From NCBI GenBank assembly GCA_937872895.1, contig CALMUP010000019.1, positions 1-64,000 of the forward strand: a stretch of 64,000 nucleotides of DNA, read 5' to 3'. Both the position numbers and the translations under genes were made by a program. The stretch comes from an uncultured Verrucomicrobiota bacterium (GTDB taxonomy: Bacteria; Verrucomicrobiota; Kiritimatiellia; CAIVKH01). Below the pieces are notes generated by a model, which had not been told where the DNA came from, did not search any database, and saw nothing but the letters and a program-made list of their open reading frames with translations. This document shows positions 47,223 to 49,211 of this stretch, one piece after another; within the stretch, counting starts at the first letter, position 1, and each line of letters starts with the position of its first letter.

Positions 47223-47251
47223 ATCTTGCCAAAGCTGCGGAAATGACACAA
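47223..47251 (-). promoter_or_regulatory. lpxI operon promoter, overlapping the alkD promoter
   Basis: On the minus strand: TTGTGT (47251-47246), 17-nt spacer, CAAGAT (47228-47223), nine bases to the ATG at 47213. It occupies almost the same bases as the plus-strand promoter at 47226-47254. Confidence 0.5.
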
Positions 47252-47254
47252 GCT
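47226..47254 (+). promoter_or_regulatory. alkD-like gene promoter, leaderless type, overlapping the lpxI promoter
   Basis: TTGCCA (47226-47231), 17-nt spacer, CAAGCT (47249-47254), six bases to the ATG at 47261. The -35 of each promoter covers the -10 of the opposite one, so polymerase can occupy only one at a time. Confidence 0.5.
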
Positions 47255-47260
47255 GCGAGC

Positions 47261-47986
47261 ATGACCCGCGCCGCCGACATCCAACGCATCCTCGCCGGCC
47301 TGGCGAATCCGGACGACGCCCGCAAGTACCAGCGCTTCTTCAAGACCGGCCCCGGCGAATACGGCGAAGGCGACCGGTTCCGCGGCATCCGCGTTCCCGC
47401 CCTCCGCCAACTCACCCGCACCCTCGCCGACCTCCCCCTCGACCAGACCGAGCGCCTCCTGGCCAGCGCGTTCCACGAGGACCGGCTGCTCGCCCTGTTC
47501 ATCCTCGTGCGCCAGTACCCGCGCGGCGACGAGGCAACCCGGCGCGCCATCTACCGGAGCTACGTGGACCACCGCGACCGGGTGAACAACTGGGATCTCG
47601 TGGACGCCTCCGCGCCCTACCTCGCCGGCCCGCACCTCGCCACCCGCGACCGCGGCATTCTCGACCGCTGGGCCGCCTCATCGCACCTCTGGACCCGCCG
47701 CATCGCCATCATGGCCACCTTCCACTTCATCCGCCTCGGCCAGTTCGCCGACACCCTGCGCCTCGCCGAACAATTGCTCGACGACCCCGAAGACCTGATG
47801 CACAAGGCCACCGGCTGGATGCTGCGCGAAGTCGGCAACCGCGACCGCCCCGCGCTGCGCCACTTCCTCGACGACCACGCCTCCGCCATGCCGCGCACCA
47901 TGCTCCGCTACGCCATCGAGAAGCTCCCGCCCCCGGAACGCCTTGCCTACCTAAGGGTGCCCAACCGCTTAGGGGTCAGCCCTTGA
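47261..47986 (+). CDS. DNA alkylation repair enzyme, AlkD-like
   Basis: 241 residues, made of HEAT-like helical repeats as in AlkD glycosylases that release N3- and N7-alkylpurines. Conserved stretches are FFKTGPGEYGEGDRFRGIRV, NNWDLVDASAPYLAG (with the catalytic-region Trp-Asp) and RYAIEKLP near the end. The ATG at 47261 is chosen from the promoter position; an ATG at 47243 lies inside the promoter. The last four residues (GVSP) and the stop codon are encoded by the left terminal repeat of the neighbouring transposon, so insertion trimmed only the extreme C-terminus. Confidence 0.87.
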   Translation: MTRAADIQRILAGLANPDDARKYQRFFKTGPGEYGEGDRFRGIRVPALRQLTRTLADLPLDQTERLLASAFHEDRLLALFILVRQYPRGDEATRRAIYRSYVDHRDRVNNWDLVDASAPYLAGPHLATRDRGILDRWAASSHLWTRRIAIMATFHFIRLGQFADTLRLAEQLLDDPEDLMHKATGWMLREVGNRDRPALRHFLDDHASAMPRTMLRYAIEKLPPPERLAYLRVPNRLGVSP

Positions 47987-49062
47987 CTTATGACTTTTTG
48001 TGCGCGCCATCCCGCCGCGTTAACCGCGCTACGGCAGAATGCATACGGCTGGCCAGGGACGGATCTTTTTCAATTCGGATCATGAGCCGACTGATCGCGC
48101 GGCAGACGGCCGAGCCGGTACCCGCATGGAGCAGGTCCGCCACCTCGCGCTGGGTTATCCCTGCATGCTGGATCAACAACCGCATGGCAACGGGGCGGGC
48201 AGCCTGATGACGTCCTTTGACCAACATATCAGCCCGCGACACCCCGAACGCGTGGGTCACAGCTTCAAGCACCTCATCAGCGGTGTTCCACGTTCCGGCA
48301 CGCCGGAAGGATATATCTTCCGGTCGCCGTGCGGACGCGGCGATATGAAGATAAGCATGCTTCATCTTTTCCTGAAAGGCTTCGTCACCAATACCCCACG
48401 CGGATCCATGCAATAGATCGGCTACCGTTTCGTCCGGCTTGGTCAATCCCTCCTCAACAAACCGCTGATACGCCGATTGCCGACGCGGTGGCGCACCGGG
48501 CATCATCGCCAGCAACGGCTCCCGTTCCAGGCCGACCAAGGGCTTGACCAGCCCGATGAACGACAGGTAACTGCTCCAGGGATAAACGCGCAATGCCGCG
48601 CGTCGTGCCGGTAGCGGCTGGCTGATCCAGGCCATCGTGAAAACCGGATTCAGATGGATGTAACGGCTGACCTGCAACAGGTAGGCATCGCCATGAACGG
48701 GTTTTGCCGCAAACCGACCCTGCATCAGGTGCCCTACCCGACGGTGCCGCCGATTGAAGTACACGGTATACGCAGTTTGAAGCCGATGCATGAACGCGCT
48801 CAGGTTGGCCCTGGGTGTCTCCACCAGCAGGTGCACATGGTTGGGCATCAGACAGAAGCCATACAGTCGGACACCGAAGCGCTCGATGGATTCAGCCAAT
48901 TGCGCCATAAACCGCTCACGATCCGCATCATGTCGAAAGATCGCCCGGCGCTCCACCCCGCGCATCGTCACATGGTAGATCGCCCCGACAAACTGAATCC
49001 GTCGCTTTCGAGCCATGGGATCATGTTCAAACATGAATTGTCATTTGTCAAGGGCTGACCCC
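47972..49062. mobile_element. REP-associated transposase element with 23-bp terminal inverted repeats
   Basis: A 23-bp sequence starting GGGGTCAGCCCTTGAC at 47972-47994 recurs as its reverse complement at 49040-49062, matching in 21 of 23 positions. Between them lies only the Y1-type transposase gene. The left repeat contains the stop codon of the alkD-like gene. More copies of the right-end sequence follow in tandem at 49051-49113. Confidence 0.75.
47988..49016 (-). CDS. REP-associated tyrosine transposase (RAYT, Y1 family) with DnaA-like C-terminus
   Basis: 342 residues from the ATG at 49016 (an ATG at 49034 is also open). The IS200/REP-transposase catalytic parts are intact: HVHLL with the metal-binding His60-x-His62 and the tyrosine helix YLLQVSRYIHLNP (Tyr112 or Tyr119). 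The C-terminal third (about 250-340) is a helical DnaA domain-IV-like DNA-binding region, as in many transposases of this group. Single-strand cleavage at palindromic REP ends is the expected activity. It is complete with no frameshift, so the element may still be active. Confidence 0.87.
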   Translation of the reverse strand: MARKRRIQFVGAIYHVTMRGVERRAIFRHDADRERFMAQLAESIERFGVRLYGFCLMPNHVHLLVETPRANLSAFMHRLQTAYTVYFNRRHRRVGHLMQGRFAAKPVHGDAYLLQVSRYIHLNPVFTMAWISQPLPARRAALRVYPWSSYLSFIGLVKPLVGLEREPLLAMMPGAPPRRQSAYQRFVEEGLTKPDETVADLLHGSAWGIGDEAFQEKMKHAYLHIAASARRPEDISFRRAGTWNTADEVLEAVTHAFGVSRADMLVKGRHQAARPVAMRLLIQHAGITQREVADLLHAGTGSAVCRAISRLMIRIEKDPSLASRMHSAVARLTRRDGAHKKS

Positions 49063-49211
49063 ATGTGGCCGACCCCATGTGGCGCATGTGGCCCAGGGCT
49101 GACCCCATGTGGCGAGTGGCCGCAGCGATGAAAATTCAGACAAAAGGGGTCAAACCTATAATTTTCTCATCACGCCTTTATCGCCCCGGGGCGGGTGGGC
49201 CCAAACGGGGG
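49035..49211. repeat. REP-like repeat cluster
   Basis: AGGGCTGACCCCATGTGGC occurs at 49051-49069 and 49095-49113 (period 44). A partial copy GACCCCATGTGGC starts at 49071, and further GGGGTC cores occur at about 49146 and 49190-49210, the last touching the end of the subtilase gene. These are likely targets or products of the adjacent REP-type transposase. No gene is present in this gap. Confidence 0.65.

Follow-up and report, generated by a model that had tools for sequence, protein, structure and literature searches.

A Y1 transposase gene between inverted ends at the tip of an alkD-like gene: a TIRtron with flank-and-tip repeats outside one end

At the 3' tip of an alkD-like DNA-alkylation repair gene, a 64,000-nt stretch of DNA from an uncultured bacterium of the class Kiritimatiellia (Verrucomicrobiota; assembly GCA_937872895.1, contig CALMUP010000019.1, positions 1 to 64,000; the whole stretch is called the window below) carries a Y1 transposase gene enclosed by inverted ends, and the sequence outside one of these ends is repeated in tandem. 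The locus raises the questions of which kind of element this is, whether such elements move, and how the repeats beside the end arose. The unit is a TIRtron (its transposase a TIRYT, subclass 2.1 of Quentin) and an ordinary member of this already known kind. Our reading, tentative and held with a little less than even confidence, is that it consists of one TIRYT gene between non-hairpin inverted ends starting GGGGTCAGnCCT, and that the repeats outside would be traces of aborted re-copying after a cut outside the tip. The features concerned are as follows.

47972 to 49062, minus strand: complete TIRtron unit, tip to tip, 1091 bp
47988 to 49034, minus strand: TIRYT gene, 348 amino acids, Y1/HUH transposase with NHVH at residue 65 and YIHLNP at residue 125
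49040 to 49062, minus strand: left end (gene orientation) from the inverted-repeat search, tip GGGGTCAGCCCTTGAC
47972 to 47994, plus strand: right end (gene orientation); the GVSP-stop of the alkD-like reading frame is encoded by the 15 nt at its start
49063 to 49113, minus strand: stuttered end, four copies of a flank word F separated by tip prefixes
47243 to 47986, plus strand: alkD-like DNA-alkylation repair gene with the insertion at its 3' tip (DNA_alkylation, E 1.4e-63)

The two arms (47972-47994 and 49040-49062) form an inverted repeat, 23 nt long and complementary at 21/23 positions (91%), and a single open reading frame (ORF) of 348 amino acids lies between them, with a Y1_Tnp match of E 9.7e-17 in the domain search; the borders of the gene are 28 nt from one tip and 16 nt from the other. 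The original prediction, made from the sequence alone, had described just such repeats around a Y1 gene and nothing else, and had recognized a complete inverted-end unit at the 3' tip of alkD, and in both respects it holds. Its extent of 47972-49113 does not, since the element ends at 49062. Its label "REP-type", for repetitive extragenic palindromes (REPs), also had to be dropped. Both tips of the unit read GGGGTCAG and satisfy GGGGWSAS, the tip motif given for TIRtrons (PMC3733652); they begin with GGGG, and no hairpin footed by GT[AG]G, as in REPs, was found at them. In the folding test, the two window tips and two tips of another family of the same genome (loci L009 and L010) showed no folding beyond that of shuffled sequences (z 0.36 to 0.97), which rules out REP or other hairpin ends. 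The NCBIfam model REP_Tyr_transpos scored 67.8 bits, under its cut-off of 80, and the transpos_IS200 model scored 25 bits, under its cut-off of 55. Tips that fit the motif and do not fold, together with RAYT and IS200 models under their cut-offs, therefore identify a TIRtron. The protein has both NHVH and YIHLNP, as in subclass 2.1, for which NHVH or NH[YF]H, Y[IV]HLNP and a C-terminal DnaA-like helix-turn-helix are described (PMC6006769); Bac_DnaA_C matched its C-terminus (residues 253-315) weakly (E 0.0016, 18.9 bits, cut-off 31.5). A search of PDB chains gave no match.

We then resolved the repeats outside the left end. Tandem copies of the end had been predicted there, and repetition is indeed present at 49051-49113, where a 19-mer recurs three times at 72% or more, two of the copies being identical; the part at 49063-49113, however, is made of flank plus partial copies of the tip. 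A 16-bp core has four occurrences in the window at no more than 3 mismatches, a number equalled by 0/100 shuffles. The word F is GCCACAT (ATGTGGC on the plus strand), with copies at 49063-49069, 49077-49083, 49086-49092 and 49107-49113, and between them stand GGGGTC plus G (49070-49076), GC (49084-49085) and GGGGTCAGCCC plus TGG (49093-49106). Read towards the element, the grammar is F, the 7 nt flanking the tip, then t, a tip prefix that varies in length, with a final F before the whole element. The same [F.t] grammar recurs with other F words at L009 and L010, and the solo end L001 has it too (L, C and G numbers are our handles for loci, contigs and genomes, G000 being the genome of the window). 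By eye, flank-plus-tip repeats were also seen at L012 and L017 (C46 and C27 of G000), whose tips are of the GGGGAC type and which stand outside the counts below.

The frequency of such footprints was determined as exact repeats straddling the tip junction, with thresholds of at least 9 nt for each of two sets and at least 10 nt for the pooled sets. From the first set we excluded L015, L016 and L019 (no hit) and 3/100 for short flanks, and then those with an inverted-repeat score below 12 or without a GGG[TA]C tip, which left 157 ends from 81 loci. For the second set, obtained with another query protein under a rule fixed beforehand, 11/107 gene hits were removed for short flanks, 17/96 for a score below 12, and 35 ends as duplicates. 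A straddling repeat was present at 36/155 ends of the first set (2/153, 0/153, 3/156, 1/157 and 0/157 at shifted control positions) and at 31/100 ends of the second (controls 4/96, 2/94, 2/103, 0/103 and 1/103). Generic local repetitiveness was rejected as the cause of the arrays, as shifted positions in the same loci gave only 0 to 4 hits. In the pooled sets, 61/255 ends were stuttered (left, 33/130; right, 28/125), and 49/134 loci had at least one stuttered end. The expectation was 0.11 with shuffled flanks and 7.9 when the 15 nt adjoining the tip were swapped among ends; because of the latter value, some of the events, mostly those with simple A-rich flanks, may be due to chance. Inverted ends per se were likewise rejected as the cause. 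Among 60 loci of DDE transposons of the same class, 23 were dropped because an edge was reached; of the other 37, 16 had an adequate inverted repeat, and 0/31 scored ends (of 32) were stuttered (Fisher p 0.0009). Nor are the arrays an assembly artefact: in genomes of no more than 10 contigs 10/25 ends were stuttered, and two genomes with long arrays or repeats, G439 and G112, are single contigs.

The boundaries of the repeats were analyzed in 42 events with a long t (at least 5 nt) and 13 with a short one. In the long-t events both lengths peaked, F at 8-9 nt (17/42) and t at 6-8 nt (27/42). The 29 non-negative values of microhomology at their junctions were 0 nt in 17, 1 nt in 10, 2 nt in 1 and 3 nt in 1, about what we estimate for random breakpoints (16, 8, 3 and 1). 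The copied part can be much longer: t reached 40 nt in L258, and in G439 an 836-bp repeat, composed of 12 nt of flank and 824 nt of element, occurs twice outside a full-length copy. As a side observation, the tandem 836-bp repeats of this locus (L336, C1:723300-725850) carry two truncated TIRYT genes beside the nearly identical full-length one. G112 has one copy with a many-tip array and a second copy without an array that is 99.6% identical to it over 755 aligned nt; since copies so similar differ in the array, arrays form rapidly.

Whether units of this kind move was addressed first in the genome of the window, where 14 Y1 genes are present. Of the window family there is one complete unit, and three solo ends lie elsewhere (C9:227005, C8:234678 and C33:19338), so that the genome check called for by the original prediction yielded further ends but no second complete unit of the family. 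A second family is represented by two complete units of 1013 bp, L009 and L010 (C13 and C20), that are 95.5% identical, with flank identity beyond the tips of 32% and 23%. These two are identical over nt 48-619 and have 41 differences over nt 620-1013, where 20 of 37 altered codons are non-synonymous; it looks as though the catalytic half had been kept by gene conversion while the C-terminal half diverged. Comparable whole-unit pairs at unrelated sites were found in G005 (L274/L275, 95.6%) and G500 (L311/L315, 96.6%), and in the pairs of all three genomes the alignment stops 2-9 nt from the tips. In genus g20, one orthologous intergenic site (L358 against L125) is occupied in G045 and G135 and empty in G133. 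One flank of a further locus, L283, hit no other genome of its genus. Near-identical pairs at unrelated sites and the occupied and empty states of the g20 site thus indicate, from genome comparison, that TIRtron units of this kind move whole. A third family, that of L011, has solo ends and two inverted pairs with unrelated interiors (C13:46277-46378, 102 bp, and C30:84561-84661, 101 bp). These pairs are REPIN-like non-autonomous units for a TIRtron, and this arrangement suggests action in trans.

Moving units also shared some sequence just outside their tips. L274/L275 have 7 and 9 nt of flank in common and L311/L315 have 6 and 3 nt, although their sites are unrelated, and random ends share at least 6 nt in about 0.14% of comparisons only; the solo ends on C38 and C20 have GAAGGCATC in common. 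The donor flank therefore seems to travel along with the element, but a target-sequence preference could also be the source of the shared flanks. No trace of a target-site duplication emerged from 76 flank pairs (72 shared 0 nt, 3 shared 2 and 1 shared 3), as shuffled pairs shared no fewer, and this insertion trace was discarded.

At the alkD junction, the alkD-like ORF ends in RVPNRL-GVSP-stop, and the arm at 47972-47994 opens with the 15 nt GGG GTC AGC CCT TGA. The arm thus begins within the alkD-like reading frame and supplies its final four residues and its stop, as predicted. We searched 58 genomes for alkD, 26 of which had a hit (the window's own genome included), and no Y1 gene stood beside it in any of the 28 loci from relatives, one relative belonging to the same genus. 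A single copy at the same site in all relatives, which the original prediction had named as the mark of an old, fixed gene, is not what was found, since the relatives lack the unit at alkD. The AlkD of most relatives stops 2-13 residues past the aligned part. When the empty site was reconstructed, joining the flanks tip to tip gave an ORF of 265 amino acids, keeping one F gave 299, removing one F gave 253 and removing all F copies gave 248. Only in the last case is the AlkD-like end, 11 residues after YL, free of letters from the element or array; this is no more than suggestive, because a stop at such a distance is not rare. Like the shared flanks, it agrees with cleavage about 8 nt beyond the tip, or with a target-sequence preference. 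That the unit had moved recently, as was originally proposed, is upheld only in that such units move whole within genomes. Of the window unit, relatives establish the absence at this site, but recency goes beyond the evidence, the unit being the sole complete copy of its family in the genome and its nearest class relatives 50-52% identical.

We propose that TIRYT bound to a tip would cut one strand about 8-9 nt outside it and hold the 5' end, while a host polymerase would prolong the free 3' end across F and into the element. Complete extension would peel the element strand off for insertion elsewhere; if synthesis were aborted after t nt and followed by rejoining to the held 5' end, the outcome would be a tandem [F.t] copy with no need for homology, and the array at 49063-49113 would represent three aborted events of this sort. 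Y1 enzymes are described as making a single-strand cut, keeping a 5' phosphotyrosine and leaving a 3' OH from which synthesis may start (PMC8266576). The wider proposition, that TIRtrons are rolling-circle copy-out elements in which Y1 cleavage about 8 nt beyond the tip leads to peeling off of the element with its donor flank, the arrays being fossils of aborted rounds, we consider doubtful; if true, the mobile unit would include a passenger flank of about 8 nt at each end. Several observations weigh against re-copying after a cut. Three units of the window's own genome (L008, L011 and L018) reach no stutter threshold, and in other phyla the footprint is weaker (7/54 tips at 10 nt or more; controls, at most 2/54). 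Extra or diverged bases occur at 13/42 long-t junctions, no sequence consensus at the F boundary was visible by eye among the listed junctions, and L009/L010 share only 3 and 2 nt of flank. The known Y1 enzymes are described as cutting at guided dinucleotides (PMC8266576), and the absence of folding at the tips implies a mode of recognition unlike that at IS200 and REP ends. Both the cut and the transposition are read from sequence throughout.

Among the rival accounts, replication slippage at a polymerase stalled by the G-rich tip or a tip-bound protein, with the nascent strand realigning upstream and no transposase cut, is rather doubtful. Most of the 13 short-t events, which have 1-2 nt of microhomology between G runs of the flank and of the tip, could have arisen in this way, and once a first copy exists, arrays like those of L287 or L315 can extend by ordinary slippage. 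Homology-driven slippage would, however, predict more microhomology than the long-t junctions have (0 or 1 nt in 27 of the 29 with a non-negative value), and it is disfavoured for this reason; the tips, moreover, fold no better than shuffles, and the DDE elements of the same class, which also have inverted ends, do not stutter. Staggered nicks by a transposase dimer, near -8 and +7 on opposite strands, followed by filling of the 5' overhangs, ligation of the ends and duplication of the interval, would account for the clustering of both boundaries (-8/-9 and +6 to +8) and for the blunt-like junctions. We nevertheless find this unlikely, as t of 40 and 824 nt exceeds a staggered break and Y1 enzymes, as described, act on single strands (PMC8266576).

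The remaining alternative, an old, fixed and domesticated gene in the window with inverted ends as relics, is quite improbable. It agrees with the lack of a second complete copy of the family in the genome, and with the available literature, in which class 2 genes and TnpAREP are held to show no evidence of mobility (PMC6006769, PMC8266576). Against it stand the absence of the unit beside alkD in 28/28 loci of relatives, the 21/23 match of the arms, the intact ORF, a G+C content (59%) below that of the neighbours (alkD, 70%; the right-hand gene, 64%), and the sister families of the same genome that move as units.

Relatives were present at E <= 1e-20 in 141/345 genomes of the class, those nearest to the window unit being 50-52% identical, and a search of plasmids gave distant relatives only. 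Both the HUH and Y motifs were found in 92/100 ORFs, and in 65/97 scored loci the 5'/3' inverted-repeat score exceeded the best score (18) of 97 mismatched-flank controls. The tip consensus of the class is GGGGTCAGCCCTTAA, followed by A+T-rich sequence up to about +26; the positions outside the tip are no more than weakly biased (A at -3, T at -2, not G at -1). A genome-wide count of GGGGTCA (466, against 154 for the reversed word) was set aside because most of the listed sites look coding. Genus g125 (family f54) has many complete genomes, each with exactly one distant TIRYT match, and this copy looks like a fixed, possibly domesticated one. In the window, a further feature lies beyond the stuttered end.

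49142 to 49170, plus strand: solo end, AAAAGGGGTCAAACCTATAATTTTCTCAT, of a TIRtron family other than that of the window unit, identical to the left end of a complete unit at C19:188675

Whether and how class 2 Y1 transposases mobilize their own genes is described as open (PMC6006769, PMC8266576). Whole-unit copies at new sites, a site with presence and absence, and a reproducible footprint at a preferred distance from the tip bear on this question and reduce it to an assay of whether cleavage by the enzyme falls about 8 nt beyond GGGGTCAG and whether the arrays depend on its tyrosine.

The closest known system is the TIRtron/TIRYT itself (Di Nocera et al. 2013, PMC3733652), which likewise has a Y1 gene between terminal inverted repeats (TIRs) that are unrelated to REPs and carry GGGGWSAS, with solo TIRs, dimers and clusters elsewhere; in its available text, that account has neither whole-unit copies at new sites nor arrays of flank plus tip prefix at TIRs. 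TnpAY1 of subclass 2.1 (Quentin 2018, PMC6006769) likewise has Y[IV]HLNP, NHVH and a long C-terminus with a Bac_DnaA_C-like helix-turn-helix, with no REP nearby, and our three intragenomic pairs speak against the view held there that class 2 genes give no evidence of mobility. RAYT/REPtrons, as described by Nunvar (2010, PMC2817692) and Bertels (2011, PMC3116915), share the Y1 gene within inverted repeats and the solo and paired repeats elsewhere. Ordered clusters of REPINs and REPs with flanking DNA are known (PMC3116915, PMC3733652): large clusters of REPs form tandem reiterations that include adjoining DNA of differing length (PMC3733652), ordered REPIN clusters also reiterate flanking sequence (PMC3116915), and such clusters may be the REP counterpart of the footprint described here. 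At TIRs, the [F.t] structure appears to be unreported in the searched passages on TIRYTs, REPs and tandem or flanking duplication. Unlike a RAYT/REPtron, the window unit has no GT[AG]G-footed palindrome, few copies and a score under the cut-off of the NCBIfam RAYT model. With IS200/IS605 (TnpA class 1) it has the Y1/HUH chemistry and the absence of target duplication in common, whereas its ends are long and inverted instead of subterminal hairpins, its motif is Y...NP and not Y...Q, and its match to the IS200 model is weak. The copy-out logic of Helitrons and of the IS91 rolling-circle transposons resembles that proposed here.
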